Part shown: one piece after another, positions 10,285 to 39,773 of the stretch | How the letters are laid out: each line of letters begins with the position of its first letter | Numbering within the stretch: the first letter of the stretch is position 1 | Origin: Verrucomicrobiaceae bacterium | GTDB taxonomy: Bacteria; Verrucomicrobiota; Verrucomicrobiia; Verrucomicrobiales; Verrucomicrobiaceae | Assembly: GCA_027490195.1 (NCBI GenBank) | Contig: JAIXYN010000059.1 | Span: forward strand, 1-64,000 | Length of the DNA stretch: 64,000 nt | Direction: 5' to 3' | The notes under the pieces: model-generated | What the model saw: the letters and a program-made list of their open reading frames with translations, nothing else | What the model was told of the DNA's origin: nothing | Database searches by the model: none | Position numbers and translations under genes: made by a program

Positions 10285-13200
10285 TTATGGGAAAACCCAG
10301 CCATGGGCTGCTGTGGCAGGCTGCACTTTCAAGAAAAACGCACGGTGAGCAGGCAGAGGGAGGGTGGCACTGACGTTCAGGAGGGAGGCGCTGCCTTTGG
10401 CGGCCCAGTAAGAGGTGGGGGAGCGCTTGAGGAGCCAGTAGGCGTCGTAGCTGGTGGCTCCGGGGACGGTGTCGCCTTTCCAGAGCTGGAGCTGGTCGGC
10501 GCTGGTCATGGTGGTGGAGGCGGTGAAGCCCTGATCAGCGGTCAGGCCCAGGCGCAGCGGGGTGGCGTCCACCGGCCAGGGCAAGGCCAGAAGGTTTTGA
10601 CCTTCATTCAATGATTTGCGCCAAGGGCTCACACGCACATGGCCTGCAAGCGTGACCGACTTGGGCTGGGAGGCGGCTTTGACCATGAGACCTGTGCCGG
10701 GAGGGATGATCTTCGCGTTCTGGGAAAGGTGCGCGGCATCATCGGCGGAGACCCACTGGCGGACGCCTGAACGTGCTGAGAGCCAATGGGCATGCCATGC
10801 TCCGTTCTCATAAAAGAGCACCTGATCGGCGGCTTCCGCCACTGCGGCGGCCTGAAAGACGTCCACCGGGAAAGCCTGCGCCAGCGTCACATGCGGACGC
10901 AGCACAACGCGAGCACCTATCAAGTCTTCCGGCAGCGTTTGGAGCGTGCTGAGCGGTGAAGCGGAAACCAGCGTGGCGACGCCCGCTGTGAGACTGGCGA
11001 TTTCAAAACGATGACCGGCCTGCGTGCCGTCCAGCACTTCAAGATAGCAGGAAGTGGCGGCATCGATGCGGACTGACTGAGCATTGGCGAGTATGAGCGC
11101 GGACGAACCGGAGAACTGCTCGATGCAACCGGCATACAACGGGGCATTCACAAGGGAGATGCCAGATGTCTGCGAACCAGCCGTGAAAGTGAAGCGCTGC
11201 CAGGCCTGGGGTGTGGTGACGGCGCTGGTGCCGTCACGATTGGTCACGCGCAGGCGCAGGATGCCGCGCTGCTTGTCCTGACCACTCAGACTGCTGATGC
11301 CGCGCCAGCTGAGCTGTTCCCTATCTCCGCTCAGGGGTGAAGGCGTGGGTGCCAGCATCACTGATGTCCAGGTAAGGAGATCGGTCGAACTTTCCAGGAG
11401 GAACGAAACTCCGGTGATGCTGCGAGGATGGTGGAGATGCGCATCCACGCGTCCATCGCTCGTGGTGGTCAACCACCAGCCACCGTCGAAGCTGCCGTCA
11501 CTGCCGAGAGCGTATTCGATGAGGTCACTGACGCCATCACCATCAAGATCTGCATTCGTAACGGGCTGAATTGAAGTCGATTGAACGGAGGCGGTCTGAA
11601 TGGAGACTGGGGAAGAGCCCAGAGCATTTTTGACGACGGTGGCCGCTGGCGGCGTGGGGACTGCCTGGATGATCTGCACCTTGTCGAAGGTGGAAACGCC
11701 GAGGTCGTAAGGGGAAGAAGACGTGACCGCCAGCCCAATGTGAACGACGTTTGCGAGTCCGGTCAATGTCGTGCTGCTGATCAGCGTCCAGGCATTGCCA
11801 TTGGACGAAGCATAGGAGGTCAGTGTGTCGCCGGTGCGCACGAGGCGGACCCAGTTGTTGGGCGCGGCGTTTACTGCGGGGCCCCCTGCGTATTCGGCGG
11901 CGGCATTGACGGTGGAGCGCCAGACCATGCCGAAGCCGTTGTTTTCTGCGGCAGGCGTGGTGAAGGCGATGGCGTGGCGTGCGCCGGCGGTGAGGGCCTC
12001 ACGGATCATGACGCCCGTTTTGCACCAAGGGTGCGTGTTGCTTTGGCTGGTGATGCGTGCGCGGATCTCGCCATTGCCGGTGAGCTGGGTGCTGGCGAAG
12101 TGGAAGCCGTCTGCGGCGAAGAAGATGTCCTCCCCTGCCCCGCTCAGCGTGTAGGTGTCCGTGGTGCTGTTGTAGGTAGTGCCGCCCGCTAGCTGAACGG
12201 TGCCGACATCTTGTCCCTGCAAGGCGATTGCCACTGGTGGTATATAGGTAACGCTGACGGTATTCGAAGCAGTGCTGCCTACCGCAGCCGCATTCTGGGC
12301 CGCATTGGCAGGCAGCGTCACCGTGACCACACCGGTGGCTGTGGGAGTCAGCGTCACGCTGTAGCTGGTGCCAGAGCCGGTGAGATTGGACGCTGTGGCA
12401 TTCGTCACCACGAAATCATTGAGGGCAAGTCCGGTGACCGCCTGGCTGAACTGCGCCTGAATGGTGAACGGTCCAGCTTCGGTCGAAGATGCTGCGCCCA
12501 GGGTCACCGCCGGAGCTACTACTGCCTGAGCACCGGCGACCTGCACGTTGTCAAAGGTGGACGTGGCGAGTATGGAGGGAGAAGAGGATGTGACGGCGAG
12601 ACCCACATAGACGGTGTTTGAGAGACCAGCCAGCGTGGCCGTGCCCATGAGCGTCCAGGCATTGCCATTGGAGGAAGCGTAGGCGCTGATGGTGGTGCCG
12701 CTGCGGACCAGGCGTACCCAGTTGTTCGGAGCTGCATTCAAGGCAGGACCGCCCGCGTAATTGGTGGCTGCATTGGCGATGGGACGCCAGACCATGCCAA
12801 AGCCGTTGTTCTCTCCGGCAGGCGTGGTGAAGGCCATGACATGCCGTGCGCCGGCGGTAAGTGCCTCACGCATCATGACTCCGGTTTTGGACCAGGGATT
12901 GGTGTTGCTCTGGCTGGTGACACGCGCGCGGATTTCGCCATCGCCCGTGAGCTGAGTCAGCGCGAAGTGGAAGCCGTCGGCAGTGCCGTAGATATCGCTG
13001 CCCGATCCTTTGACGGTATAAACGCCGCTGCTGAAGGTGGTGCTGCCAGCGACCAAGGGTCCGCCCACGTCCTGGCCTACGAACGCCACGGTGGCAGGCA
13101 CTGTGTAAGTCACAGAGACCACATTGGAAGCGGTGCTGCCGGTGGCTGCTGAATTTTGTGCTGCTCCTGCTGGCAGACTCACTGTCACGATACCCGAAGC

Positions 13201-16200
13201 CACGGGAGTCAAAGTGATGCTGTAGGCTACGCCGCTGCCGCTGAGGTTGGACGCCGTGGCATTGCTCACGGTAAAGTCAGACAGCGTCAGTCCCGTGACG
13301 GATTGGCTGAACTGTACCTGCGCCGTGAAGGGGCCAGTCTCGATGCCGGAGGCTGTGCTGAGGGTGACGGAGGGTGCCACTGCTGTCTGCGCGCCAATGA
13401 CCTGCACGTTGTCAAATTCAGCCGTGGTCGTCAAACCGCTGTCGGCAGCGGTCGCAGCCAGTCCGACATACACCTGCGCAGAGAGATTGGTCAGAGTGGT
13501 GGTGCTCACGAGCGTCCAGGTGGTTCCATTGGCGGAGGCATAGCCGGTGAGCACATTGCCTTCGCGCACGAGACGCACCCAGTTGTCCGGAGCCGTGCTC
13601 AGAGCCGGGCCACCTGCATAGCCCGTGGTGCCATTGGCGATCAGACGTGACACCATGCCAAAGCCATTGCCTGCGTCCGGTGGTGTGATGAACATCATGG
13701 CATGGCGTGAGCCGGCGGCCAGCGTCTCGCGCACCATGACGCCAGCCTTGGCCCAAGGGTTGGTGTTGCCAAAGCTGCGCACGCGGGCGCGCACTTCGCC
13801 ATCGCCAGTGAGCACGACCTGCTCAAAGCGGAAGCCGTCTTCGGTGGAGTAGATGTCCTGGCCTGAGGCGACCAGCGTATGAACGCCAGTGCTAATGTTG
13901 ATGCTGGTGGAGCCCGCAAGGAAACCACTGCCGATGTCCTGGCTCACAAAGGCGGGGCCGCTGGCTGCCGGTGTGTAGGTGCGTGTGAGGACGTTGGAGG
14001 CAAGGTTTGTCACCATGTCTGCATCCTGCGCCTGAGCTGCGGCGATGCTGATAGTGACATTGGCCGTGGGCGTGATGGTGAAGCTGTAACTCGTACCCGA
14101 GCCGGTGAGAGCACTGGCGGTGCCGCCGGTCACGCTGATGTCTGACTGAGTGAAGCCTGTCACGGGATGACTGAAAGTGGCAGTGACGCCAAAGGGAGCG
14201 CTCAAGGAAGCAGGGGCTGTGGTGGCGAGTTCCACCGTAACTGGCAGCGGCGCGGAGGCGGGTGCGTTGTCGATCTGCTGGAGATAGGCGACGAGGCTGG
14301 CGAGATCCGCCGCATTCAACGTCACGCCTTGATGCGCGGTGACGGCATCTGCCAGGGTGGCAGCAGAACCATCATGCAGATAGGGGGCCGTGGCCCAGAG
14401 ACCGCGCATGGTGGGAACATCGAAGCCGGTGAGCGCGCCGTTGAGACGCTTGCCGCTGGTGGGCTGCCTGATGGTGCCCACATCACGGAAGGCATTCAGC
14501 GCGCTGTTGGTGAAGGCTGAACCGCTGTGGCATGAGGCGCAGTTTTGCTGGCGGAAGATGCGCTCGCCTGCCAGTGCAGTGGTGGTCATGGTGCCGTCGG
14601 TGTTGCGATTTGGACTGACGGATTCCGTGGTGAGGGAGGTGACGTAGGCAGAGAGTGCATCGAGGTCAGAGCTGACGCCGGCTTTGGAATCACCCAGCGG
14701 CTGGTTGCGTGTACCTGTGTTGAACTGCGCATCTGTCATGAGTCCGGTGCCGCCGGAAAAGACGCGGATCTGTCCTTCAAAATCATGCACTTCGTCGAAG
14801 TTGCCCGTCCAGTGCAGGGCACCATGCGCGCCATGACCGCGAAGCGTGATGGTGTTGCGCAGGCCTTCGCCGGTGCCGGTGAAGTCCCAGGTGCGGCCGT
14901 CATGACCGCCGTCGTTATGACAGGAGGCGCAGGAAATGTATTCCTGCAAGGCCAGGCGCACATCCGCCGCGTCATAGAAGAGCTGCTTGCCCTTCAGCAC
15001 TGTGGCGCTGAGTTTTTCAGTGGTGACGGTGTTCACAACGCCCAGTGTGGCAGGTGTGCTGCTGCCACCCTGGATGAGGCTGCTGACGTCATGCACGCTG
15101 ACGGTGCGGCTCATGAAATTGTGCACGAAGAGAGTGCGGCCATCAGGTGACAGCGCGAGACCTTGAGGAGCGAGGCCGGCATCGAAGCGGGTGATGACAG
15201 TCTTGTTCCATGCGTCCACCACGGCGATGGCGCGGCTGCTTTCCAAGGCGACGAAGATGTAGATACCCCAAGGGTCAAACGCTGCTGCGCTGGGCATGCC
15301 GGCGTTGTCGAAGTCAACACGGCCCGCGTAGTCTTCGGATTGCGTGGTGAGATTGATGCGACTGGCGATGGCACGCAGTGACTGATCATGATTGAGGCCC
15401 TCGCCATTGCGCAAGGCACCGCGCTTGATGTTGTCCTGCTTGGAGGGCACCCAGGCGGAAAGGCCGTCGGGAGAGATGGCCGTTGCGCCGAGGTAGTTTG
15501 GTAGGCCGTGAGCGGAGGTAGGTGTGTCTGCTTGCTCGCTGTGCTGCAGGAGAATGGTGCGCTCCAGCGCGAGTGTGGAGGCGGTGACCACGAGCACTTC
15601 GCCGCCGCGCCCGTTGGTGTTTGGCGCAGCGGTGTTTTCTCCGGGAAGCGGAGGCGTGATGAAGCGGCTGACATACACACGCGCGCCATCCGCACTGACG
15701 GAGACATGACGCGCATGCTGGCCTGCATTGAGCGTGGCGATCTGAGCGCCCGTACTGGGATTCAGCTTCAGCAGACGCCCGCTGCCTTCGAGGGCCACGT
15801 AGGCGGCGGTGCCATTCGGATCAAAGGCGATGCCAAAGGGGCGCGAGCCGCGTGGCAGAGTTAGCGTGCCGACCACGGCATAGGTGGTGCCGTTTAAAAT
15901 CGAGATGGTGGAGCTCTCGGCATTGGTTACCCAAACGCGGCCATCTGGAGCCAGCGCCAGGCAGCGCGGTGCGGTGCCCACGCTGGTCTCGGCGAGCTTG
16001 CCGCGAGTCACCGCATCCAAGATGGTCACACTATCGGTGTCCGGATTGACGAGCCAGACGCGGTCATTGCCAGTGGCGCGGTCTTCGAAGATGAGGCTGG
16101 AGGAAACGGCAGGCTTCCTGGCGGTAAGCGGCGCATAAACGGCCTGGAAGAAGGTTCTGGTGACGACTGCGCCGGTATCATCCGTAGCTGTCACGACCAC

Positions 16201-19200
16201 GGTGTAGCGTCCCGGATTGGCGAAGGTGTGGCTGATACTGGCGCTGCTGCTGTAGGCGGTCTGAGGCGTGCCATCCCCGAAGTTCCAGCGGAAGCGTGGG
16301 TTCGCACCGCCCGTGCTGGCGGCGGTCAGGGTCACAGCAGCCCCTGAGCCCGCCGGGGCGGACTGCGACTGCTGCACGGACAGGGCATTGCTGATCACCC
16401 AAGTGAAGGATGCCGTCGCAGGAGTTGTGTTGCCATCGGTCACGCTAACGGTCACGGGAAAGCTGCCAGCGGCGGTCGGCGTGCCGCTGATGATGCCGGA
16501 TGCGGCATTGATGGAAAGGCCGGTGGGAAGACCGGTAGCGCTGAAAGCCAGCGTGTCCTGATTGAGATCCGTGGCCTGGATGCTCAAGGAGGTTGCTGCA
16601 TTGATGATGCTGCTGCGCGGGCCAGGATTGGTCACTACGGGCGGTGTCGGGGATGCAAAGGCATTGAGGTTTATCTCCCAGGACAGCACTTCATGCGTGT
16701 TGATGGAGCCGCCTGTCGCGCCGGTGAAACCCATCCATGCGCTGGGGCCGACGATGCTGGCGAGCTTCAGCGCTGTCTGGGTAAGAATAGGCGAGGCGGG
16801 CTTGGTGGAGCTGACGCCTTGGACGATGTAAACGCGCAGCGTGTCGGAGGGGCCATCGTAGTCCACCCAGAGCGTGTGGCTGGCGCCGTTCTCCATATCG
16901 AAGGAGGGTGTCGCAGTATTCAAGTGTGGCGAGACGACGCCGTTGGTGAGGATGCCGATGTGATTGGCATTGGGATCGGTGCCGCCGGTGTAGGTGTCGA
17001 GCTCGATGGCGAGGCTCTTCAGGATGCCTTCATACCCTTCCCCGCCACCCGCTGCGCCGAGTGCCGTGGCGGCGCTTCCTTGCAGCACGAAGGTCATACC
17101 GTCCGCGCCATCGCCGGTGCCATTCATGCGGAAGACGAAGCGGCTGGAGAAGGAGGTGCCTTCGGAGACTGGAACGGGTGCGGTGAGGAAGGCGGAGCCT
17201 GCTTGATTGCCGGCGTTTGGTGTGAGCACGAGCACGCCATTGCTCACTCTGGTGCTGCCGTTGAGCTGCAGGCCGGCGGCAGAGGTGAAGGTGGTGAAGT
17301 TTTGGCTCAGGTTAGGCGGTGTGATGGTCCAGGCGAAGGTGGCGCTGGCGGTGGTGATGCCGTCAGTCAGATTGACGCGCGCGCTGCTGAAGGTGCCGGT
17401 GACGGTGGGAGTGCCGCTGATGACGCCGGTGCTGGCATTGATAGCAAGACCGGTGGGCAAACCTGTGGCGGTGTAGGTCACAGCGCCATTGCCAGGAGCC
17501 ACGCCGTACACCGCTAATGTTGCGGGTGCATTCACCGCGCTGAACTGGCTGCCGGGATTGGCCACGGTAACGCTTTGAGCCGGATCGACCTGAATGACTT
17601 TTGCGACGGAATAGGCTCCACTGGCCGTGACGCCAAAGAGCATCCAATAGCCCGGCGTCATCACGCTGAGATTGGCGTGGCCCTGCACGACGTAAACGCC
17701 GGGAGAAGTCTCGGTGGATGGCAGACTGAGGTAGCGCAGATCGGTATTCACCGAGTGGGTCTGCGATGACATCTTGATGAAGCTGAACTTGGTGATGCCG
17801 GGCGTGGCCTGCACGGCAAAGGTGGTGCCAACGCCGATGTAGGAGGGTGCCTGGGTAATAACCGGGCGCGTGGCCAGACTGCCATCTGCATTGTACAGCA
17901 TCGGCGGAGTGAAGAGCTGGCCATCACGGTGGTCAGCGCTGTTGCCCGCAAGGCCGCCACCGCCGGACCACACGCGACCATCTGGCAGCAGCAGTGCGAG
18001 GGAATGGTAATTGCGTGGAACACTCATCGGTGCGAGCTGGCGCCACTGGCGCGTGGTGGGATTCCACAGTTCGGGAATCAGCACGGAGCCTGTGTCATTA
18101 AACTTCAAGCCGGAGGTGTTGCCGCCGATGACGAGCACCTCGCCAGTGGGAAGGATGACTGAATTGGCAAACTGACGGGTGTAGGTCATGGAGGGCACGC
18201 TGGCCACCACGGGAGTGCCGGTGCGGATGTCGATGGTGAAGGCAAGGTTGGTGCTCGTACCTGTGGAACTGTCGCTTGCGTTGGGTGTGGTGCTAGCTGA
18301 TCCGCCAGCCACCAAGATGCGTCCTTCATCATACATGGCAAAGCTGCCTTCCTTGGGGTAGTGCGCTCCGGGCACATTGACACCGGAATAGGTCAAGCTG
18401 CCGGTGCCTGTGGCAGTGAGCCAGTTCATCTGGTCTGTGGGGCCACCGTGAAACAGACGGCCATCAGGTGCGACAACGATGAGTGGATGCCAGCGCGTGA
18501 CATATCCTGGCAGGGCGACCTGCGGGGCCCAGTTGATGCCGCTCAGTCGCGCCCATCCGCCGGCTGCGGACCAGCGTTCTGCGGTATTGGTACCGCCGTC
18601 TCCTGTTACGGTGAAGACACTGCCATCCGTCAAAGCCACGCTCGTATTGTACCAGCGGCCGTCGTTCATGTTGGGCAGAGCGGTCCACTGATTAGTGCGC
18701 CAGTCGAACGCGCTGCTCAGCCTGGTGGTGTTGCGGCCGCCGTTGATGACGACCCGGCCGTCTGGAAGCATCGTGGTGCCACCGCAGAACATGTCGTGAC
18801 GCGTGTTGTTGATTTCGGTGAAGACACCGGTGGCGGGATTCCACACAGCGGCGTAAGTGAACTCTGCGCCTACCGGGAAGGTGGTGCGCTGATTTGAGGC
18901 AAAGGTCAGCAAGCGCCCGTCCGGCAGGGTGGCGGCCGTCACGGGAATGTGAGGCGTCCAGGAAATGACGCTGCCCCATTCTCCCTGTGAAATGCGATTC
19001 GTCAGCACCGTGGCAGCGGGTGCCAGAAGGGTAAAGGCAGGAGCCAGCGCTTGGGCTTCGGCAAAAAGCTGGTCACTCAGACCGTGATCATCTTCACCCG
19101 CGCGAAGAGAGCTGAGGCTCGAACTCGAGATAAGCAGGAAAAGGGCAGAGCGAGCCAGGGAACGAAAAAGTGATGGTCGCACCGCCTGATTTTTTACTTT

Positions 19201-19215
19201 ATCTGGAATATTCAT
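10285..19215 (-). CDS. Giant secreted copper-radical-oxidase/cytochrome c multidomain protein
   Basis: This 2976-aa protein begins with a signal peptide (cleavage near LRA, residue 39). Residues about 45-550 are a galactose-oxidase-like kelch domain plus C-terminal early-set domain. The copper and cofactor residues fall at C144, Y189, Y403, H404 and H487, with spacing close to fungal galactose oxidase. Next come a putative Ig (about 555-635), a legume-lectin-like domain (640-845), a second Ig, a PKD domain (WNFGDG, about 975), a YVTN-type beta-propeller (1045-1390) and a cytochrome c region (1400-1650) with CASCH at 1429 and 1559. Three concanavalin-like/Ig repeats (1750-2520) follow, then a C-terminal domain I do not recognise. 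It should be extracellular. The substrate is unknown. Coding is confirmed by the uninterrupted frame and conserved motifs. Confidence 0.9.
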   Translation of the reverse strand: MNIPDKVKNQAVRPSLFRSLARSALFLLISSSSLSSLRAGEDDHGLSDQLFAEAQALAPAFTLLAPAATVLTNRISQGEWGSVISWTPHIPVTAATLPDGRLLTFASNQRTTFPVGAEFTYAAVWNPATGVFTEINNTRHDMFCGGTTMLPDGRVVINGGRNTTRLSSAFDWRTNQWTALPNMNDGRWYNTSVALTDGSVFTVTGDGGTNTAERWSAAGGWARLSGINWAPQVALPGYVTRWHPLIVVAPDGRLFHGGPTDQMNWLTATGTGSLTYSGVNVPGAHYPKEGSFAMYDEGRILVAGGSASTTPNASDSSTGTSTNLAFTIDIRTGTPVVASVPSMTYTRQFANSVILPTGEVLVIGGNTSGLKFNDTGSVLIPELWNPTTRQWRQLAPMSVPRNYHSLALLLPDGRVWSGGGGLAGNSADHRDGQLFTPPMLYNADGSLATRPVITQAPSYIGVGTTFAVQATPGITKFSFIKMSSQTHSVNTDLRYLSLPSTETSPGVYVVQGHANLSVMTPGYWMLFGVTASGAYSVAKVIQVDPAQSVTVANPGSQFSAVNAPATLAVYGVAPGNGAVTYTATGLPTGLAINASTGVISGTPTVTGTFSSARVNLTDGITTASATFAWTITPPNLSQNFTTFTSAAGLQLNGSTRVSNGVLVLTPNAGNQAGSAFLTAPVPVSEGTSFSSRFVFRMNGTGDGADGMTFVLQGSAATALGAAGGGEGYEGILKSLAIELDTYTGGTDPNANHIGILTNGVVSPHLNTATPSFDMENGASHTLWVDYDGPSDTLRVYIVQGVSSTKPASPILTQTALKLASIVGPSAWMGFTGATGGSINTHEVLSWEINLNAFASPTPPVVTNPGPRSSIINAATSLSIQATDLNQDTLAFSATGLPTGLSINAASGIISGTPTAAGSFPVTVSVTDGNTTPATASFTWVISNALSVQQSQSAPAGSGAAVTLTAASTGGANPRFRWNFGDGTPQTAYSSSASISHTFANPGRYTVVVTATDDTGAVVTRTFFQAVYAPLTARKPAVSSSLIFEDRATGNDRVWLVNPDTDSVTILDAVTRGKLAETSVGTAPRCLALAPDGRVWVTNAESSTISILNGTTYAVVGTLTLPRGSRPFGIAFDPNGTAAYVALEGSGRLLKLNPSTGAQIATLNAGQHARHVSVSADGARVYVSRFITPPLPGENTAAPNTNGRGGEVLVVTASTLALERTILLQHSEQADTPTSAHGLPNYLGATAISPDGLSAWVPSKQDNIKRGALRNGEGLNHDQSLRAIASRINLTTQSEDYAGRVDFDNAGMPSAAAFDPWGIYIFVALESSRAIAVVDAWNKTVITRFDAGLAPQGLALSPDGRTLFVHNFMSRTVSVHDVSSLIQGGSSTPATLGVVNTVTTEKLSATVLKGKQLFYDAADVRLALQEYISCASCHNDGGHDGRTWDFTGTGEGLRNTITLRGHGAHGALHWTGNFDEVHDFEGQIRVFSGGTGLMTDAQFNTGTRNQPLGDSKAGVSSDLDALSAYVTSLTTESVSPNRNTDGTMTTTALAGERIFRQQNCASCHSGSAFTNSALNAFRDVGTIRQPTSGKRLNGALTGFDVPTMRGLWATAPYLHDGSAATLADAVTAHQGVTLNAADLASLVAYLQQIDNAPASAPLPVTVELATTAPASLSAPFGVTATFSHPVTGFTQSDISVTGGTASALTGSGTSYSFTITPTANVTISIAAAQAQDADMVTNLASNVLTRTYTPAASGPAFVSQDIGSGFLAGSTSINISTGVHTLVASGQDIYSTEDGFRFEQVVLTGDGEVRARVRSFGNTNPWAKAGVMVRETLAAGSRHAMMFITPPDAGNGFGMVSRLIANGTTGYAGGPALSTAPDNWVRLVREGNVLTGYASANGTTWTLVSTTTLTNLSAQVYVGLAATAADSGLTTTAEFDNVQVIGAQTAVAPSVTLSTASGIETGPFTAQVQFSQSVTGLTLSDFTVSNATASNLSGSGVAYSITLTPVASGIVTVSLPAGAAQNSAATGSTASNVVSVTYTVPATVAFVGQDVGGPLVAGSTTFSSGVYTVKGSGSDIYGTADGFHFALTQLTGDGEIRARVTSQSNTNPWSKTGVMMREALTAGARHVMAFTTPAGENNGFGMVWRPIANAATNYAGGPALNAAPNNWVRLVRSGTTISAYASSNGNAWTLMGTATLAGLSNTVYVGLAVTSSSPSILATSTFDNVQVAGAQAVVAPAVTLGAASSTEAGPFTIQAQFSQAVTGLALNDFVVTNATASNLTGSGTSYSVTLTPTATGVVTVTLPANAAQNAAAVGSTASNTVSVTYIPPVAIALQGQDVGTVQLAGGTTYNSTTDTYTLSGAGEDIFFAADGFHFASTQLTGNGEIRARITSQSNTHPWCKTGVMIREALTAGARHAIAFTTPAAENNGFGMVWRSTVNAAAEYAGGPAVNAAPNNWVRLVRTGDTLTSYASSNGNAWTLISSTTLTGLANVVHIGLAVTSSSPYDLGVSTFDKVQIIQAVPTPPAATVVKNALGSSPVSIQTASVQSTSIQPVTNADLDGDGVSDLIEYALGSDGSFDGGWWLTTTSDGRVDAHLHHPRSITGVSFLLESSTDLLTWTSVMLAPTPSPLSGDREQLSWRGISSLSGQDKQRGILRLRVTNRDGTSAVTTPQAWQRFTFTAGSQTSGISLVNAPLYAGCIEQFSGSSALILANAQSVRIDAATSCYLEVLDGTQAGHRFEIASLTAGVATLVSASPLSTLQTLPEDLIGARVVLRPHVTLAQAFPVDVFQAAAVAEAADQVLFYENGAWHAHWLSARSGVRQWVSADDAAHLSQNAKIIPPGTGLMVKAASQPKSVTLAGHVRVSPWRKSLNEGQNLLALPWPVDATPLRLGLTADQGFTASTTMTSADQLQLWKGDTVPGATSYDAYWLLKRSPTSYWAAKGSASLLNVSATLPLPAHRAFFLKVQPATAAHGWVFP
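11670..14240 (-). repeat. Three tandem concanavalin-like plus Ig-like modules within the giant gene
   Basis: Three copies of a roughly 185-residue module lie at about 13398-13953, 12540-13089 and 11670-12228. They are recognised by QDIG/QDVG near the start, TGDGEVRAR or TGDGEIRAR, NPWAKAGVM or NPWSKTGVM, GYAGGPA-type motifs and a final FDNVQV. Ig-like spacers of about 310 bases separate them, giving a period near 860 bases. Units 2 and 3 are more alike than either is to unit 1, which fits stepwise internal duplication. Confidence 0.85.
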
Positions 19216-30956: not shown

Positions 30957-33900
30957 CTATTTCGAAAGGCGTGCGATAGCGGCTTCGACGGATTTTTTAA
31001 CACCACCGCCCAAGCGTTTCTCGTCGAGGGATTTAAGCACTTGCAGCGCTTCCGGCTTTTTGCCGGTGCGCTCGAGAATCTCGGCCTGCTTTACGGCGTA
31101 GCCAGCGGCGAGACCGTAGTCCTTCTCGTTTTCTTTGCGGGCCTGCTCAAAGGCGAGCGCAAACAGCGGAGCGGCGGCGTCATTTTTCCCGTTCGCGGCC
31201 AGCAGGTCTGCGGCCTCGCTGGCGGTGCGCCCCATGCGGGGCAGAGCATTGGCGATTTGGGCGGCCACGGGGGCAAACTCATCAGGTTTGAAGACGGTGC
31301 TTTTTTGCACGATGTCGTTGATGAGATTGGGAATGCCCTGACCGGCGGCGGGATACTTCGAGGAACACCATTCATCTCTGGCAATGGCGACGACAAGCTG
31401 GCCGCGCTGCTCCGGCGTGAGGCGCATCTTTTTCTGAGTGCCCGCGAACTGGTAAATGTAGTCCCAAATTTCCCAGCGTTCATGAACACGTTTTTTGATA
31501 TCGCGCCGGTCCGCTTCCGCCAAGCCATTGCGCCACGATGCAAAGACAGCGGGCTCATTTAGGATAAGGTGGATCAGCCATTTCTGAGTCGCACAGTCTG
31601 CGACATGCATCTCCCGCAGATCGGCGGGAGTTTTAGAAAGGACATAATCAAGGAAAGGCAACACAACGCGAACATTGGGCTCATGACCAGCCTCGTATTC
31701 ACGGGCCCAGAGCCAGTTGGCGACCCAAGTTGGCCCCCAGCCTGTTTCTTTCACGGCGGAGCGCTGGTAGTGGATCTGGCTGTAGTGAGCGGCGAGTGCG
31801 CGGTCATAGGCGGCGATGTTTGGCTGCACGTCTCCCTGTGCAGCCTTGAAGCCGAGGGAAAATTGCAGGGGCTTGAGCTGACGCCAGTGTTCCCAAGTTT
31901 CATCGATGGCAGCAATCGCCTCAATGTTGGTCTTGGCGGCGACTTCATCGACCGCGTCGTGGATCAGGTCTGCGGCATCGTAGAAGTTGCAGATGATCTC
32001 GACGCAGTCTTTACGCACTTCCTCATCGGTGAACTTGGTTTCCTTGAATCGTTTCGCGATGTCTTTGAAGCGATCTTCGCGGGTCTTAAAGCCCGGAATG
32101 GAGGCCTGTTCGGTCTTGGCGGGATCTTTGATGTAGGAGAGATAAATCTCCCCCAGCAAGGCCAGACCGGGGTCGCCGCAGGCGGCTTTGAAAGCAGGCA
32201 GGTTTTCGATGATTTCCCTACTCCATCGCAATTCTGCTAGAGGATCGTATAAAAAGCCGCGCCACTCGGCTTTGAAATGCTCTGCGGCGAGCTGTGGCTG
32301 AGCGCCGAGCATGAGACTGACCATGCCGGACTGCTCGTCGTTCAATGTTGCATGATGCTGGCGGAGCATTGTGCGCATCCAGTCTTCGTTGCCTGCACGG
32401 GCAGTCATGCACAGCATGCTGTTGATGACCCATCCACAGGGCTCGTATTTATTCAATCCGCCATTGGCGAGACGAGCCAGCCATGCGTCCCAGTGCTCCT
32501 GTGCGGAGGCCTTCCACGAGGCATCGACAGGCAGGCGGTTGAAGGAGCGCATGATCCATCCGTACTGAAAACCGTGGATGCAGTGTTTCTGCTTCATGGA
32601 TTCCAGCGCAATGGCTGCGCCCAGCTTCGCGCAACCGGCATCCATGCCATCGAGGGCTTTGTACGCTAGGTGATGTGCCAGAGACTGACGCGCACGCGGA
32701 TTGATGGAAGTGTTGCCAAGGCAGGCGCGGTAGTGCTCCCAGGCTGGCTGCAGACCACCCGCAGCCTCCACGGCCTTCTGCGCGCCTGCATTTTGCGAGG
32801 ACTGGGGATCGAACGTTAAGAAGACGCGACCGGCATAATCGAGCTCCTTCAAGAGGTCGGCATGCGGGTGATCTTTCGGAGCTTTGGCCGCCCAGTTCAA
32901 GGCTGCAACACGCTGGGCTGCCGGCAGTTTGGTGAAGAAATCGTAAAAGGCGATGCCGAGCAGCGTGTGTGGTGTGTCGCCCATCTGCGCGGCCAGAGCT
33001 TTGAGCATAGCGTCAATGCCGCGCCCCATGGCGGCCCCGCCTGCGTTGTTGCGCCAGAGTTCGATCAGCACCTGGCCGTATTTTGAACTCTGCGACCAGC
33101 CATTCATCGCCAGGTTTCCGGTGGTGTCCGTGTGATACATGTGCATCACAAAACCGATGGCTTCGACCTTTGGCATTTTGGCCAGCAGATCATCAAAAAT
33201 TTCTGACCGCGTGGTCCAGCCGTTGCCGCTGTTACTTCCATTCCAGCCACCGGAGCGCTCCTTGGTTTCCAAGAGGATTGCAGCGGCGAGAAAGAGCTGC
33301 TCCGCTTTTGCACGATCCGTGGGGATCAACATGCGCAGCGCCTCAATGAGCTTCTGATCGTAGGCAGTGTTATTCGATGAAACGTCTTCGGCCCGCGTGG
33401 CGGCGATCCAGCGGTCAACCTCATCCATCGCCTTCTTGCGTTCGACGCCGAGCAGCGGATCGAGCACCTTCACCAAGGCAGGATCAGCACCGGCGGGCTG
33501 GTTGAGCGCGGGGATCTGCAATTTGATGAGCGCCATGATGGCAGTGCCGCTTTTTTCCGGAAGCTTCGCCACATCAGCCGCACGCCGTTTCAGCAGTGCA
33601 GATAGCGGGCCACCGGGGACATCCTGCAGAAGTGTCTCACACAGCTCCGTACCGAAGGTGCGCTCCTTCAGCGCCGCCAGTCTGGAGCGAAGTTCCTGCA
33701 TGGTTTCGCGATTTTCACGCACCTTTTTGATAAACTCCACCTGCAGGCAGTTGGGATCCTCCGGCAGGATCATTTTCTCCGCCGTCTCCATCCAGCCAAG
33801 TGCCCCAAGTGCGGCAAAGGCATGATCGGATGACTTCATGACTGCGGCCATGCTGGAGGAGTTGCTGCGCGACCAACTGGGATGGTCCGTGGCCCCCACG

Positions 33901-36900
33901 AGTGAGGCCATCTGCAGACCTGCGCCAAAAGTCACTGGCTTGCGTATCAGATTGTTAATGATCTCAATCAAAGTGTATGCGGAGGCATTGCCCATGGAAC
34001 CGCCGCCGCCGTAGTATGCATTGATCGTGCTCTGCATGGCCTTGCCCCAAGTGCTCTGGTCAGCGCCGAGTGCCCCGGAAATAAGACGGGTCAGGAACGG
34101 CAGCATTCCAGACTTTGGATGCATCTGCTGGCGCAGGGCGAGATAGTGGGAAACGGCGTACCCTTCGCTATAACCACCGCTTTGCTTCATGCTGGTGGCG
34201 AGAATTTCATCGAGAGGGAGTCCTTCGATCCCGCGCTCGCCCCAGCGGTCGATGAGCCACACCAGATTTTGATCCTCTGCAAAGCTCGAACTGCTGCGTC
34301 CACTGATCGTGGTGAGAAAGGTTTTTGCATTGTTAGCAAAAGCTTCGGGATTGCAGGACCAGACGTTCAACTGCGCGCGCAAAATGCTTTGCTGCGTGCT
34401 GTCCAAAGCTGCAGCGGCTAGAGGCATGATTTCCCGCTCGATTTGCTCCCCATGATTTTCTTTCCAAGCCTTCCAGATGAGAAACTCCGCCGGTGTAGGC
34501 GACCACAGGCTGGTCACTTCCAGAGAGGAGTGAAACCGGCGCCTCGCTGGGGCCCCGCGCTGCGAGCCTGAGGCAGCTTTGGCCGCCTCCAGCACCTGAC
34601 GGGCGGTGGTGGCGAGTTCGTCGGTTTTTTGCCCGTCCTGGATCACCAAAGACGCAAACCTGCGGAAGCCTTCCTCTGCTAGAACGGGATGCTTCATCAG
34701 GGCCTGGCACATTTGGTCATGCACTGCACGGCGCTTTTTTGCCTCGGGAGCAGTCGCAGGCAGGTAGAGCCCCTCACCATTCCCCTGCGATGATTCAGGT
34801 CGCAGGTACAAATATTCCAGCCGGGGTTGAGACCGGTACGTTTGTTTCGCGATGGTGGTGGGCAGGTCGATCATCCATTCCAGGCCTTTCACGCCTGATG
34901 CCGAAGGTGCGGAATCCAGCATCACTGCCAGCGCGGTGAAAATGCTCATTCGGGCCTCAAATGGCATTGCATCATCCTCGCGCAGCAGTTCGGCGATCTG
35001 GCTTCCCACGTTGCTCTGCTGGTAAGCAGAGAGCGGCACATCCGCCAACATCTTCACCGCCCGCGCCGGGTCAGCCGAGGCAGTCAGCGCACATAAATGC
35101 AGACGCGCCTCAAATTGCTTCGGGTTCATTTCCAACACTTTTTCCAGCGTCTTGATGGCTTTGGTTCTTTGGTCAATGAGCATCAAGAACTTCGCCTGCT
35201 CGTACAATTTCGTTACCGAGGCATTCTCTCCAGGGTCAAAGACCGCCTGGATTTTTTCAGGCAGGCCCGACCTGCCCGCGAGGCGCATAATCTCCTTGGC
35301 ACGGCTGGTTGCGTAACTTTGATTGCCGCTGCCGGCCATCGTTAGAACACGACGCAACTGGGCGACGGCCTCCTTAACGATGGCATCTTCATCTTTGCCT
35401 GCGACCAACGTCTTCAGCTTTTTCGTATCAACGTTGGAATTGCTGACGTAGCTGGAGGTGCGCTGACTCACTGATGGTGCCATCAGGGCGATATGCGACC
35501 ACTGTTCCGCCTCGTCGCTCAGGTGCAGCGTCTTCATGGCGGCGACCAGCTCATCCTTCTGCTCCGAAGTCACGCGTGCGCTGCGCAGACGGCGCAGGGC
35601 CATCTGTGCGGGCTCCAACAGCGGACTACCCGCCTGTGGTTTCAGCTTCATCACCGCATGCGCCAAGGCGGCGTCAAAAGCAGGGCGGACACTGGCAGGA
35701 ATGTTCATGCTTGAGGCGCGTATGAGCAAGTCGGCCACGCGGACGTAATCGTCCTCAATGCTGAACCATGAGGCGGCGAGCAGCAGATCATCCACGGAAG
35801 GGTTCGGTGCAGAGATAAGCAGGCTGACTTCGCGCGTCACTCCCTCGCGGTAACCGACCTTGTAAAAAAGCAGGCCACGCAAGGCAGGAGACTTGATGCT
35901 CTCAATCAGGGGTTTTAAGTCTGCATACTCCTCTGGTTCCGGCTCCAGCTTGTCGGTGTCACGTGGATTGTAGATGTCCTTGCGCCCGAAGTAGAGTACC
36001 ATAGAGTTAGGAAGCATGGTGCCCCCGGGAAACGGCAGGCGGGTGATCATCTCCCCGGCTGAGGTTTGGCTGTGGCGGTTAAAGTGCGTGCTTAATTTTG
36101 CCCATGACTGGCGTGTGGGCGCATGCTCCGTCCATATCCGAACCTCGCGCTCAAGAAGGGCAACAAATTCCTTCCAGGCTTTTATGCTGCGGCAGGCGTT
36201 GGCTGCACTGGGCAGACCTGAAGCGTACACTTTAACTGAGGCGTCAGGCGCGATTACGTCCATCTGCCGCAGCATCAAAGCCAAGATGCGGCGGCAGAGC
36301 GGTTCTGGCACCACATTGGGGAATGAGCCATCCCTCATGCGCTGGCTACCGCCGATCATGGCGCCGAGATAAGAGATTTGAACGCCATTTTTCAGCAGGT
36401 TTTCTGGAGACATTTTTTCAAGTAAATCCAAGGTCTCTTCGAGCATGGTTGCACCGCGCCCGCTGTCAGCCATCACTGCGTGCCTGACAGCCAAGACCAT
36501 CAGCTGAGGATATTTTATTTTAAAGCGATCGAAGGCTCGTGATGCGACATTGAAAGAGATATGGTCTCCCCTGCCGATGAAATAAGCCAGCAACGCGTCA
36601 TCATAAGGATGCTTTTCCAACGCATCCGGGCTGATGTTAAGCTGAAAGTATTGGTCAAGGTCGAATGCATCGAGGTAACGCGCCCCTGGAACTGCAGCGC
36701 TTACGGCCTCTGCAATCCATGCGGTTTTTTTCTCCAGACTCTCCGCCTTTAGCAGAGTCACGAGATGCGCCACAGACATTGAGTGCAGACTGCTCAGACC
36801 TGTGGGGACAATCACTGCTCTGCTGGCGCTCCGGGGTGTAAAGCGGATCGAAGTAGAACGATACTTGTAGGCCTCGTAGCTGGAGCCACCAAAGGGAAGC

Positions 36901-39773
36901 AATTCCGCACTGCCCTTTGGGAACTGCTTTATCATCTCTTCCTGATACTCCGCCCTGCTGACGGCGGTCTTTGCCGCAGCGGTGACGGCAGGCAGTTCCT
37001 GGGATTGCCCCATAAGTCGGATGAACAGGGCCATGGCTGCATCCTCCTTGCCATCCTCCTCCAATGCGACCGCCTGCAGATACGCCAGCCTGTAGTCGTC
37101 TGGAAAGCGAAGCAGGAGCGGTTCCAGAAAACTGATGACGCGTTTCCAGTCCTGCAGCGCTGTCATGCTTTTTGCCATGGTGAGCGCGTCATCGGCATCC
37201 ATTTGTGCGCCACCTGCCAGTTCGTAGAGCATGCGGTAGCCGGTGTTTGCATCGCCGTATTCAATTTCGATCGATGCGATCATCTGCTGCACGCGCCCGC
37301 CTTTGGAGCGGCCTGCTACACGCTGCAGTTCCTCAATGGCACGCTTCGACTGGCCCATGTCCAGGTCCATGCGAGCGATCTGCATGGCCAGATTGGCATC
37401 ATCAGGACGCAGACGCAAGGCCTCACGCAGCGCACGCTCCTGCTCGGTGGTGCTGCCTGCCACCCGATAGATTTCCGCCAGTGCCAGCCATGGTGCCGCA
37501 TCTGCGCGATTGGTGCGCTGACGTTCGAGGAATTTTTCTGTGAGCACTTTCAACTGGCCGCGATCACTGGCGATGCGCGCAAGGGTGCCGACCCAGCGCA
37601 TCTTAGCGTCCGGCTTGTCCTCTTTCTCAAACAGAGCCAGGTAAACTCGTTCCGCGTCACTCATCTGGCCCTGTTCGATGTAGGCGGAGGCCAGTGAATC
37701 TGCCACCGCCTCATCATCTTCGAATTTCCGTGTGGCTGCCTGAAGCACTTTCAATGCCTCGCGGCCTTTGCCATTGAGCTGCATAAGCTTGGCCTCGCGC
37801 AGCCAGGGAGAAGGTGAGCCGGGAGAAAGGGTCTTCCATTCCGCCACCCACTTCAGCGCCTGATCAGGTTTCCCAGAGCGTTCCGTCAGGTCTATCAGTC
37901 GCTGCATGTTGGTGGAATTTCTTCCCTGGGGCATGGCCATGAGCTTTTCCGCCTCCTCTGCCGCGCGGAGCCAGTCCTGGCGGGATTCCATCAGCTTGAG
38001 CAGCCGCGTCTGCGCCGCCAACGCATGTTCCGCCGGAATCTCACGCAGGGTTTTTTCTGCGCCAAGATGGTCCTGTTTTTCTTCGAGCAGGGTGGCCAGC
38101 AGGATGCGTTCCTGCACCGTTGGGGTGCCCTTTTGCAGAGCGGCCAGGGTTTCGGCAAATTTTGGCTCATCGGCCTTCAGACAGGCCACGGCCTGCCGCA
38201 GAGCATCATCCAGAAAACTGACGTCTGATGTGGCACGCACCCGAGCCAGCGCCCACGGAATGGCTTCCACCGGTTTCTTGGCGCTGAGCGCTGAATTGAT
38301 CAGCAGATCAAGAAAGCGCTCATCCTTTGCAAACTCCGTCCGGCGTGTTTGTAAAATCTCCAAAGCTGCCTGTGACTCAAGGCGCGTCATCAGCGCCTGG
38401 CCCACCGCCATGACCTGGGGAAGATCGCCGTTTTTTGCCAGATCACGCCAGATCGCCAGTGCTGCGTCACGTTTGCCGCTGCGGTGGAGGTAATGGGCCT
38501 GCGCTTCCTTGGCCGCACTGCTTTCAGGAAAAGACGCGACCATGCGTTCGTAGGCCAGAGTGGCATCTTCACCACGCTCCCAGCTTTCGTAGAGCCGCGC
38601 CACACGAAGGTGATCAAACTCTGCGGTGTCTTTTGCGGCTAGATATTTTTCCAGCGTCGCCTTGGCAGCCGCTTTCTCCTTTGCCCGTTCTTGCAGTGTT
38701 GCCAGGCGGATGAGGAGTTCGCGATCATCGGGCACCTGCTGGAGCAGGACGTTGGTTTGCGCGATGGCCTCCTTGAACTGCTCAAAGCGGGCCAGCAGAT
38801 CGAGGTAACTCTCACGCAGCTCCCGCTGGCCCGGTGTTTTTTGCAGCAGCGTCGCGTAAATGGCGAGCGCCTTGTCTTTTTCACCCAGCTCCGCCAGGAC
38901 GCGTGCGCGCTGCTGCTCCAGCGCTGTACGCTGCGGATGGGCGGCCTGGAGCTTTTCCAGCTCTTTCATCAGCCCGCTCAGGTTTTCGTCGCGACGAAAC
39001 AATGCTTCGATTTGCGCCAGCACCTCGCCCTCGATCCAGGTGCTCTGGCCGGTGTCCGCGAGTGTTTGGGTCAGCAGGGCCAGCGCAGATTCCCTCTTGG
39101 TGGCACGGAGTTGGATCTCCGCCAAACGTAACTGGCGCAGTGCTTTGGCATAGGCGTCCTTGGTTCTGGCGATCAACGCCAGCATCTGGGTCTCCGCCTC
39201 GGCAAAAAGTCCTTCGTCGAGCTGGAGTTCGACCACCTCCTCCACCAGATCTTCATCATCCGCGTTCGCTTTCACCAGATCCCGCCATGCCTGCAAGGCC
39301 GCTTCCGGCTTGCCGGTGCGCAGCAGCCAGCGCCCGCGCATCTGGCCGATCTCGCGGCCCAGCTCTGCATTCGCACCACCTTTTTCTGCTTCGATGAGCG
39401 ATTTCAAGGCTGACTCGAAATTCATCATGCGCGCTTCCAGCTTGGCGCGTTGCAGCCAAGCCTGTGCGTTCGTCCCATCGCGCGTAAGGGCGGCAGTGTA
39501 GGCTTTCAAAGCTTCGGTCTCGTTGCCACGCTGATCGTGAAAGATCGCCAGCACAAGCAGATCAGCCGTGGTGCTGGTGCGCTGGTTCAAAAAGTCCGAG
39601 AGCGAGTCCGCCGTGCCAGTTTCCATCCACGCCGAGTAGAACCTGTCATAGACCAGACCGGCCTGAGGACGCTTGAGCAGCATCTGATGATATTTTTCCG
39701 CCTCGGCACCCGGCGGCACGTTCTGTCCGAAACATGCCATGGCCGAGACGAGAAAAATAAACCGTATTTTCAT
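30957..39773 (-). CDS. Giant secreted TPR-repeat protein (2938 aa)
   Basis: A signal peptide (MKIRFIFLVSAMACFGQ) is followed by roughly 1000 residues of TPR-like helical pairs, for example ARVLAELGEKDKALAIYATL and LAMQIARMDLDMGQSKRAIE. The middle, about 1000-2750, is predicted helical by composition but has no motif I can name. TPR-like repeats return near the C-terminus (GKKPEALQVLKSLDEK). The protein should lie in the periplasm or outside and act as a large interaction scaffold. It ends 63 bases before the Q/C-rich membrane protein gene on the same strand, so it may belong to the MoxR/VWA operon. The open frame is continuous over 8.8 kb with no sign of decay. Confidence 0.85.
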   Translation of the reverse strand: MKIRFIFLVSAMACFGQNVPPGAEAEKYHQMLLKRPQAGLVYDRFYSAWMETGTADSLSDFLNQRTSTTADLLVLAIFHDQRGNETEALKAYTAALTRDGTNAQAWLQRAKLEARMMNFESALKSLIEAEKGGANAELGREIGQMRGRWLLRTGKPEAALQAWRDLVKANADDEDLVEEVVELQLDEGLFAEAETQMLALIARTKDAYAKALRQLRLAEIQLRATKRESALALLTQTLADTGQSTWIEGEVLAQIEALFRRDENLSGLMKELEKLQAAHPQRTALEQQRARVLAELGEKDKALAIYATLLQKTPGQRELRESYLDLLARFEQFKEAIAQTNVLLQQVPDDRELLIRLATLQERAKEKAAAKATLEKYLAAKDTAEFDHLRVARLYESWERGEDATLAYERMVASFPESSAAKEAQAHYLHRSGKRDAALAIWRDLAKNGDLPQVMAVGQALMTRLESQAALEILQTRRTEFAKDERFLDLLINSALSAKKPVEAIPWALARVRATSDVSFLDDALRQAVACLKADEPKFAETLAALQKGTPTVQERILLATLLEEKQDHLGAEKTLREIPAEHALAAQTRLLKLMESRQDWLRAAEEAEKLMAMPQGRNSTNMQRLIDLTERSGKPDQALKWVAEWKTLSPGSPSPWLREAKLMQLNGKGREALKVLQAATRKFEDDEAVADSLASAYIEQGQMSDAERVYLALFEKEDKPDAKMRWVGTLARIASDRGQLKVLTEKFLERQRTNRADAAPWLALAEIYRVAGSTTEQERALREALRLRPDDANLAMQIARMDLDMGQSKRAIEELQRVAGRSKGGRVQQMIASIEIEYGDANTGYRMLYELAGGAQMDADDALTMAKSMTALQDWKRVISFLEPLLLRFPDDYRLAYLQAVALEEDGKEDAAMALFIRLMGQSQELPAVTAAAKTAVSRAEYQEEMIKQFPKGSAELLPFGGSSYEAYKYRSTSIRFTPRSASRAVIVPTGLSSLHSMSVAHLVTLLKAESLEKKTAWIAEAVSAAVPGARYLDAFDLDQYFQLNISPDALEKHPYDDALLAYFIGRGDHISFNVASRAFDRFKIKYPQLMVLAVRHAVMADSGRGATMLEETLDLLEKMSPENLLKNGVQISYLGAMIGGSQRMRDGSFPNVVPEPLCRRILALMLRQMDVIAPDASVKVYASGLPSAANACRSIKAWKEFVALLEREVRIWTEHAPTRQSWAKLSTHFNRHSQTSAGEMITRLPFPGGTMLPNSMVLYFGRKDIYNPRDTDKLEPEPEEYADLKPLIESIKSPALRGLLFYKVGYREGVTREVSLLISAPNPSVDDLLLAASWFSIEDDYVRVADLLIRASSMNIPASVRPAFDAALAHAVMKLKPQAGSPLLEPAQMALRRLRSARVTSEQKDELVAAMKTLHLSDEAEQWSHIALMAPSVSQRTSSYVSNSNVDTKKLKTLVAGKDEDAIVKEAVAQLRRVLTMAGSGNQSYATSRAKEIMRLAGRSGLPEKIQAVFDPGENASVTKLYEQAKFLMLIDQRTKAIKTLEKVLEMNPKQFEARLHLCALTASADPARAVKMLADVPLSAYQQSNVGSQIAELLREDDAMPFEARMSIFTALAVMLDSAPSASGVKGLEWMIDLPTTIAKQTYRSQPRLEYLYLRPESSQGNGEGLYLPATAPEAKKRRAVHDQMCQALMKHPVLAEEGFRRFASLVIQDGQKTDELATTARQVLEAAKAASGSQRGAPARRRFHSSLEVTSLWSPTPAEFLIWKAWKENHGEQIEREIMPLAAAALDSTQQSILRAQLNVWSCNPEAFANNAKTFLTTISGRSSSSFAEDQNLVWLIDRWGERGIEGLPLDEILATSMKQSGGYSEGYAVSHYLALRQQMHPKSGMLPFLTRLISGALGADQSTWGKAMQSTINAYYGGGGSMGNASAYTLIEIINNLIRKPVTFGAGLQMASLVGATDHPSWSRSNSSSMAAVMKSSDHAFAALGALGWMETAEKMILPEDPNCLQVEFIKKVRENRETMQELRSRLAALKERTFGTELCETLLQDVPGGPLSALLKRRAADVAKLPEKSGTAIMALIKLQIPALNQPAGADPALVKVLDPLLGVERKKAMDEVDRWIAATRAEDVSSNNTAYDQKLIEALRMLIPTDRAKAEQLFLAAAILLETKERSGGWNGSNSGNGWTTRSEIFDDLLAKMPKVEAIGFVMHMYHTDTTGNLAMNGWSQSSKYGQVLIELWRNNAGGAAMGRGIDAMLKALAAQMGDTPHTLLGIAFYDFFTKLPAAQRVAALNWAAKAPKDHPHADLLKELDYAGRVFLTFDPQSSQNAGAQKAVEAAGGLQPAWEHYRACLGNTSINPRARQSLAHHLAYKALDGMDAGCAKLGAAIALESMKQKHCIHGFQYGWIMRSFNRLPVDASWKASAQEHWDAWLARLANGGLNKYEPCGWVINSMLCMTARAGNEDWMRTMLRQHHATLNDEQSGMVSLMLGAQPQLAAEHFKAEWRGFLYDPLAELRWSREIIENLPAFKAACGDPGLALLGEIYLSYIKDPAKTEQASIPGFKTREDRFKDIAKRFKETKFTDEEVRKDCVEIICNFYDAADLIHDAVDEVAAKTNIEAIAAIDETWEHWRQLKPLQFSLGFKAAQGDVQPNIAAYDRALAAHYSQIHYQRSAVKETGWGPTWVANWLWAREYEAGHEPNVRVVLPFLDYVLSKTPADLREMHVADCATQKWLIHLILNEPAVFASWRNGLAEADRRDIKKRVHERWEIWDYIYQFAGTQKKMRLTPEQRGQLVVAIARDEWCSSKYPAAGQGIPNLINDIVQKSTVFKPDEFAPVAAQIANALPRMGRTASEAADLLAANGKNDAAAPLFALAFEQARKENEKDYGLAAGYAVKQAEILERTGKKPEALQVLKSLDEKRLGGGVKKSVEAAIARLSK

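Follow-up and report, generated by a model that had tools for sequence, protein, structure and literature searches.

What does a copper radical oxidase (CRO) have to do with a di-heme cytochrome carried on the same polypeptide? The question is raised by a gene of a Prosthecobacter-like bacterium, located in the 64,000-nucleotide stretch of contig JAIXYN010000059.1 (assembly GCA_027490195.1, Verrucomicrobiaceae) that was analysed here and is referred to as the window. Its product, a protein of 2976 aa that is probably secreted, combines an AA5-type CRO head with a YVTN propeller and a c-type di-heme domain, and the initial annotation of this DNA had read it as a self-contained extracellular oxidation unit. 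The fusion turns out to be conserved in several phyla, and its propeller and heme parts resemble the beta and gamma subunits of hydrazine synthase. Tentatively, and with slightly less than even confidence, we read the protein as an oxidase–peroxidase in one chain, in which the di-heme unit would use the H2O2 produced by the head; the chief alternative is a dehydrogenase whose electrons would go to the hemes.

The oxidase head and the propeller–di-heme unit

The five galactose oxidase site residues picked out by the initial annotation, C144, Y189, Y403, H404 and H487, match their equivalents in the bacterial galactose oxidase 9g8h, as judged by alignment and fold. Together with 9g43, 9g8h is the closest solved structure to the head (phmmer, E 7.8e-102), and fungal galactose oxidases align as well. 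Within a set of 33 relatives, window included, C144 and Y189 are found in 32 rows, the remaining one being gapped, and Y403, H404 and H487 in 33/33; in a larger collection of 65 rows (fused, split or undetermined), both tyrosines and both histidines are invariant (65/65) and the cysteine is present in 63, a figure that is partly selected because the locus search patterns include the motif HDMFCGG around Cys144. The fold was compared on a compact relative (L120, 1175 aa) in place of the window's own head: the L120 model (pLDDT 85.8, pTM 0.64) superposes on 9g43 with Z 55.1 and a root-mean-square deviation (rmsd) of 1.7 over 454 residues, and on GlxA with Z 43.7 (VIA). Both the AA5 first-shell set (Cys, Tyr, Tyr, His, His) and the kelch/E-set fold are thus present. 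Among the Pfam matches of the 2976-aa protein are GO-like_E_set (residues 450-543, 3.6e-15), Kelch_6, He_PIG and RoxA-like_Cyt-c, and in the heme part CCP_MauG (1409-1478, 9.9e-10) and Cytochrom_C (1549-1648, 5.2e-6). The profile searches proposed in the initial annotation were therefore borne out by the E-set and by CCP_MauG, the latter over model positions 7-76 of 149 alone, whereas Glyoxal_oxid_N scored 28.1 bits, under the Pfam cut-off of 37.5.

Directly ahead of the predicted cross-linking tyrosine stands Trp188, within an R-W-Y motif found in 65/65 fused, split or undetermined rows. The tryptophan also occurs in 8 of the 12 unfused rows, so that it appears to be old rather than tied to the fusion; three of the remaining rows have the galactose oxidase pattern RGY...GGSWSGG and one has Phe. 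Column 241, which we take to be the position of the galactose-binding Arg, contains N in 13, R in 9 and I in 3 of 27 rows. In FgrAldOx, an aldehyde oxidase of family AA5_1, a second-shell Trp stands next to the cross-linked Tyr in the chain and is flipped like W288 of GlxA (PMC13094651). The stacking aromatic residue of AA5_2 enzymes, W290, has no counterpart in the alignment, in which the window's protein is gapped at the WS of 9g8h, although another residue may fill the space. From the Trp188–Tyr189 pair, arranged as in FgrAldOx, and the absence of the WS of the W290 loop, we infer an aldehyde/glyoxal-type rather than a galactose-type head. A plain galactose oxidase is not supported, the WS being missing and column 241 being mostly occupied by residues other than Arg. 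Note that two Thiotrichaceae/Cocleimonas proteins (L111, 410-4931; L112, 494-3485) carry Ala at the position of the cross-linking Cys, the other four copper-site residues being kept; they may be natural copper oxidases that lack the Tyr-Cys link.

The YVTN propeller and the two CASCH heme sites announced for the same chain were confirmed by Pfam and NCBIfam (YVTN repeats of TIGR02276 above the cut-off, a TIGR03866 match below it), and the Cys and His of both CxxCH sites, like Trp1469, are kept in 58/58 rows. Among solved structures, the best sequence match of the propeller is the archaeal surface-layer YVTN protein 1l0q (4.8e-30), followed by two hydrazine synthase subunits, gamma for the heme part (4.3e-14) and beta for the propeller (6.1e-13). 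The L120 propeller gives a tie between hydrazine synthase beta (VIA Z 38.1, rmsd 1.8, 304 residues) and 1l0q (Z 37.2), in a comparison that hardly probed the heme part of that model. For the heme part alone, the closest phmmer match is hydrazine synthase gamma (1.4e-15), and so it is by VIA with a model of window residues 1386-1660 (pLDDT 73.7, pTM 0.70; below 50 near heme 1, at model residues 54-70 and 81-89), which gives Z 16.6 against gamma (rmsd 3.7 over 226 residues), at most 13.7 against cytochrome c peroxidases, 13.1 against MauG and 9.2 against RoxA. Ranked by Foldseek E-value, the same model puts cytochrome c peroxidases first and gamma sixth. The initial description of the heme part as cytochrome c peroxidase-like thus holds for Foldseek, the two CxxCH sites and the Trp, but phmmer and the VIA scores place hydrazine synthase gamma closest. 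NCBIfam profiles for GlxA (1.9e-42) and for the hydrazine synthase beta-gamma fusion (hydrazine_BC, 2.3e-24) both match far under their cut-offs. By the phmmer and VIA matches, propeller and hemes form one unit built like hydrazine synthase beta-gamma. This unit is exchangeable, since three Verrucomicrobiota proteins carry it without a CRO, behind other heads. One of them, of 2392 aa, is encoded by the window's own genome (L156:1316-8494, minus strand, G000:C71), where it is the third propeller–di-heme protein; the other two (L157:2006-7075 and L158:712-6594) come from 96 genomes of the phylum, and L157 has an LVIVD repeat ahead of the unit.

The two CxxCH sites lie in a two-domain fold that keeps the catalytic Trp, as in di-heme peroxidases and MauG. 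Residue His1628 occupies a column, presumably that of the Met serving as axial ligand of the C-terminal heme in peroxidases, where 57 of 58 rows have His and one has Met; the axial Met of a di-heme cytochrome c peroxidase is thus lacking in 57/58 rows, and heme 2 is predicted to be bis-His (H1563/H1628). The third thioether cysteine of hydrazine synthase, gamma-Cys165, is absent from 58/58 rows, its column containing F (32, F1486 among them), L (23) or M (3), so that hydrazine synthesis is not supported. Homologues elsewhere are likewise said to have the peroxidase Trp, named as a feature of di-heme peroxidases, and no gamma cysteine (PMC12758564).

Recurrence of the fusion

A search of named genomes based on the CRO alignment, using patterns that include HDMFCGG or [STA][VI]xxPEIWNP, kept 80 of 87 relatives. 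In 57 of these 80 CRO loci, CRO, YVTN propeller and di-heme domain share one frame; three reach the propeller at a contig end, three are split (L078, L081 and L100, the last labelled by hand), five are undetermined and 12 are unfused. As the search patterns favour near kin, these fractions are not population frequencies. The family PF09118 is found in 24 of 56 related genomes (the window's own included), with both heme motifs in-frame in 31 of the 33 genes and the other two cut by contig ends; it is found in 0/14 control genomes, and in 7 genomes of a 288-genome draw of the phylum, where all 8 matches lie in frames longer than 2600 aa (five new ones, fusion unchecked). The architecture, which the initial annotation had suggested looking for in other Verrucomicrobiota, is present there and also in Gammaproteobacteria, Chloroflexi, Blastocatellia and Phycisphaerae (names as deposited; those of metagenome-assembled genomes, or MAGs, may be wrong), and three isolates carry it: Brevifollis gellanilyticus, Haloferula luteola and Leucothrix pacifica. 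An assembly or frame artefact joining two genes, named beforehand as what would refute the fusion, has a practically nil probability despite the three split loci, because the layout recurs in one frame in most of the loci and genes just counted, from many separate assemblies, the three isolates included.

All 56 full spans have the order CRO, propeller, di-heme, with CRO–propeller linkers of 99 to 964 residues. Over 54 proteins, the distances between CROs correlate with those between propellers (Mantel r 0.86) and di-heme domains (0.74), 0 of 999 permutations reaching as high, which is consistent with joint inheritance; shared species descent alone would also produce a correlation. In the CRO tree, all fused rows lie on one side of a branch with support 97, two unfused rows being found among them (Colwellia L121 and Nitrospirales L124), and the fused and unfused states require 3 changes. 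This tree was obtained by a quick search on 77 rows with SH-aLRT only, without L092, L100, L117, L123 and L139, and L067, L078, L081, L095, L112 and L113 were labelled by hand. The four alignments cover the window plus 26/31 other spans (A1), the window plus 27/30 (A2), 44/56 spans (A3) and the window plus 57/58 (A4). Among the papers listed by searches of the open-licence literature, subscription papers and preprints being outside this coverage, none reports a CRO–di-heme fusion.

Copper-related neighbours and the setting of the gene

Beyond the likeness to hydrazine synthase gamma, the comparison of loci brought out a second feature absent from the initial annotation, namely a gene with MbnP and/or MbnH-like parts directly upstream of many relatives, MbnH being a di-heme enzyme of the MauG-like kind. 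It is present in 32 of 47 assessable loci of the 51-locus verrucomicrobial set (defined by locus number), with both parts in one frame in 30 of the 32; upstream means on the same strand and ending no more than 700 bases from the CRO domain, counted from the start of this domain. None of 9 unfused loci has an adjacent MbnP–MbnH gene. Three such upstream proteins that were scanned match MbnP and CCP_MauG above the Pfam cut-offs, and one, run against NCBIfam, matches MbnH (2.1e-74) and MbnP (1.9e-9) under the curated cut-offs. MbnP occurs in 24/24 CRO-positive genomes (the window's own included) and in 11/32 CRO-negative ones (Fisher 1.1e-7), and within the genus in 23/23 and 7/12, respectively (0.0024), kinship being uncorrected in both cases. 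Since all 24 CRO-positive genomes also carry MbnP, the self-contained character of the proposed oxidation unit is in question; on the whole, what the initial annotation observed was confirmed and its interpretation partly supported. With its recurrence across phyla, often beside a copper-handling gene, the fusion has the look of a genuine oxidation machine.

MbnH is the enzyme that forms kynurenine in MbnP. Kynurenine takes part in copper binding in CorA and MopE (PMC3912023); in 2013, MbnP and MbnH were termed mysterious partners, and no data tied MbnP homologues to copper (PMC3621798). In the window's genome, the only MbnP match is a lone MbnP–MbnH fusion gene (L146:7794-9581, G000:C2), with no CRO beside it and adjoined by a small protein with a PEP-CTERM-like tail, judged by eye. 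Outside Verrucomicrobiota, up to 3 open reading frames (ORFs) per side were listed at 8 fused loci, among 13 loci covered in all, and seven of these ORFs were scanned together with two from unfused loci. The metal- or heme-related products are few. A heavy-metal-binding-domain (HMBD) protein starts about 12 bases after the fused CRO gene of a Blastocatellia MAG (L114:11654-12631), and the opposite strand downstream of the fused gene in Leucothrix encodes a CCP_MauG protein, a weakly YtkA-like protein and a Cu amine oxidase domain with Big_9 repeats (L110:17382-21264).

The window's gene is flanked by PNPase, an ORF of 121 aa with no Pfam family and a divergent leuB, so that no operon is apparent in the window and this possibility was rejected. 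The lectin, PKD and concanavalin-like modules that had been described are all found by Pfam (Table 1). The C-terminal 417 aa share 40% identity with the same region of the genome's second copy and are perhaps a sorting or surface domain. A second giant frame of the window (30957-39773, minus strand, 2938 aa) has TPR-like regions as the best Pfam stretches shown (residues 75-820 and 2849-2914).

Table 1. Positions in the window of the fused gene and of the features of its product
Feature	Position	Strand	Basis
Whole gene	10285..19215	-	Uninterrupted ATG-to-stop frame, 2976 aa
Probable Sec signal peptide, ~residues 1-39	19099..19215	-	Judged by eye from sequence
AA5-type CRO head, kelch propeller and E-set, residues ~80-545	17581..18978	-	Pfam, phmmer to 9g8h, fold of same part in relative L120
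C144, predicted Cys of Tyr-Cys cofactor	18784..18786	-	Alignments
W188-Y189, Trp then predicted cross-linking Tyr	18649..18654	-	Alignments; PMC13094651
Y403-H404, predicted axial Tyr and copper His	18004..18009	-	Alignments
H487, predicted second copper His	17755..17757	-	Alignments
Legume-lectin-like domain, residues 637-854	16654..17307	-	Pfam Lectin_legB 8.1e-35
PKD domain, residues 945-1023, immediately ahead of propeller	16147..16383	-	Pfam
YVTN propeller, residues ~1030-1392	15040..16128	-	phmmer, NCBIfam, fold of same part in L120
c-type cytochrome domain with two hemes, resembling hydrazine synthase gamma and cytochrome c peroxidases, residues 1395-1650	14266..15033	-	Pfam, phmmer, model
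Heme site 1, CASCH 1429-1433	14917..14931	-	Cys and His in 58/58 rows
W1469, aligned with Trp of FWDGR motif of di-heme peroxidases	14809..14811	-	58/58 rows
Heme site 2, CASCH 1559-1563	14527..14541	-	Cys and His in 58/58 rows
H1628, predicted bis-His heme 2, column of peroxidase Met	14332..14334	-	His 57, Met 1 of 58
Big_12 Ig-like and DUF1349 modules, three stretches each, approximate span	11716..14241	-	Pfam
C-terminal 417 aa, common to genome's second copy	10288..11538	-	No Pfam family

Functional readings and comparison with known systems

If the chain works as an oxidase–peroxidase, the lectin-like modules would give access to a surface where the head would oxidise an aldehyde or a primary alcohol, reducing O2 to H2O2; heme 1 (His1433, Trp1469) would receive the peroxide from the head and heme 2 (His1563/His1628) would deal with single electrons. 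The di-heme unit would thereby clear peroxide where it arises and, in the role ascribed to separate peroxidases for other CROs, provide a one-electron oxidant to maintain the Tyr-Cys radical in its active state; MbnP–MbnH would supply or store copper. Lignin peroxidase, for example, reportedly activates glyoxal oxidase. We favour this reading because of a precedent, GlxA of Streptomyces lividans, a CRO whose H2O2 is used by the heme peroxidase DtpA and whose maturation is poor at low copper without Sco or DtpA (PMC4736821). It is also in keeping with the first-shell residues and fold of the head, the conserved fusion and its correlated distances, the invariant CxxCH sites, heme 1 Trp and R-W-Y motif, the di-heme peroxidase / hydrazine synthase gamma fold of the heme part, and the presence of MbnP in every CRO-positive genome. 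Several observations weigh against it. DtpA itself showed no strong binding to GlxA and no gain in activity over horseradish peroxidase (PMC4736821); no proton-handling residue could be placed at heme 1, although E1475 and E1480 are conserved in 58/58 rows; W188 is not peculiar to fused CROs and the propeller–di-heme unit sits in three CRO-less proteins. As for copper, the MbnP–MbnH gene is missing at 15/47 verrucomicrobial loci and at 9/9 assessable fused loci elsewhere, and adjoins neither the window's gene nor its nearest relatives (L065, L066 and L068), while the co-occurrence of MbnP with the CRO is uncorrected for kinship and stands, within the genus, at 23/23 against 7/12.

The bis-His ligation predicted for heme 2 bears on the main rival, a copper radical dehydrogenase comparable to enzymes in which a catalytic domain is linked to a cytochrome domain: electrons would leave the reduced copper site for the hemes, rather than for O2, and go on to an external acceptor, O2 reduction being a side reaction. 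To our knowledge, no CRO has a physiological acceptor other than O2, which counts against this possible but doubtful reading, as does the peroxidase Trp retained at heme 1. Conversely, a single chain favours direct transfer, the unit is paired with various heads, and hydrazine synthase has in gamma-II a heme described as bis-His, with a presumed role in electron transfer (PMC12758564). A more specific version, which we consider unlikely, is an O2-independent copper radical enzyme in which the Cu/Tyr-Cys electrons would exit via the hydrazine-synthase-type di-heme unit of the same chain, with the upstream MbnP–MbnH acting as a dedicated copper inserter.

The MauG-like fold of the heme part (Z 13.1) and its MauG and MbnH profile matches, weak and below cut-offs (TIGR03791 1.3e-9, TIGR04039 7e-12), could instead indicate a maturation unit, the di-heme part or a neighbouring MbnH building the Tyr-Cys cofactor or modifying a residue of the head and then remaining idle. 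GlxA is indeed immature at low copper without DtpA, but purified apo-GlxA requires added copper to form the link, and dtpA mutants regain mature GlxA when copper is given (PMC4736821). Moreover, the MbnH of the same genome has a Tyr at the position aligned with H1628, so that this ligand differs from the MauG/MbnH type; the unit is also found in proteins that lack a CRO; and of the two proteins with Ala for the cross-linking Cys, L111 keeps the di-heme domain and L112 reaches the propeller. We therefore hold the maturation reading to be quite improbable. Likewise improbable are uncoupled modules, oxidase and di-heme unit acting on different things and sharing a chain for display at one surface: the variable linkers and the CRO-less proteins fit such an arrangement, but the fixed order of the parts, their correlated distances and the presence of just two unfused rows inside the fused clade argue against it.

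Altogether, the fusion links three subjects that have been studied apart, namely CROs, hydrazine synthase beta-gamma homologues and the MbnP–MbnH pair. The known peroxidase partners of CROs are separate proteins, and we know of no role assigned to the hydrazine synthase beta-gamma homologues. The fused chain makes testable whether CRO and hemes exchange peroxide or electrons, what a hydrazine-synthase-like unit does outside anammox, and what MbnP–MbnH is for; should the O2-independent reading with its copper inserter be true, the fused CRO would be the first physiological client known to us of this widespread pair. The beta-gamma homologues are highly prevalent in environmental bacteria (PMC12758564). 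Furthermore, as CRO assays routinely include added peroxidase (PMC8207647, PMC13094651), a single-chain CRO–peroxidase could be useful in biocatalysis.

Among known systems, hydrazine synthase beta/gamma (5c2v) is the top VIA match of both the propeller (tied with 1l0q) and the di-heme domain and has the same propeller-then-di-heme arrangement, its beta and gamma subunits being fused in Ca. Scalindua japonica (PMC12758564). The present protein differs from it by F/L/M in the gamma-Cys165 column, by the peroxidase Trp and by the CRO head in front; no alpha subunit was found in the 10 neighbouring ORFs scanned, the rest of the window and of the genome not having been searched for it. The main text of PMC12758564 treats a homologue from Opitutus terrae and mentions neither galactose oxidase nor any name beginning with Verrucomicrob. 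Di-heme cytochrome c peroxidases and MauG/MbnH share the two CxxCH sites, the Trp and the general fold (Z ~13), the peroxidases differing by the axial Met in the column of His1628. A bacterial AA5 alcohol oxidase is reportedly fused to an inactive CE3 domain; it is likewise a bacterial AA5 fusion, with an esterase-type partner and no hemes. The galactose oxidase of Pseudarthrobacter siccitolerans (9g43/9g8h) has the fold and the five first-shell residues of the fused head, which lacks the WS of its GGSWSGG loop, has Trp188 beside Tyr189 instead and is fused to the propeller–di-heme unit. Finally, the GlxA–DtpA–Sco–ECuC system likewise comprises a CRO, a heme enzyme using its H2O2 and copper proteins for maturation (PMC4736821), but DtpA is a separate DyP-type enzyme, whereas here the heme partner is a c-type di-heme unit in the same chain, with MbnP–MbnH as the copper candidate.

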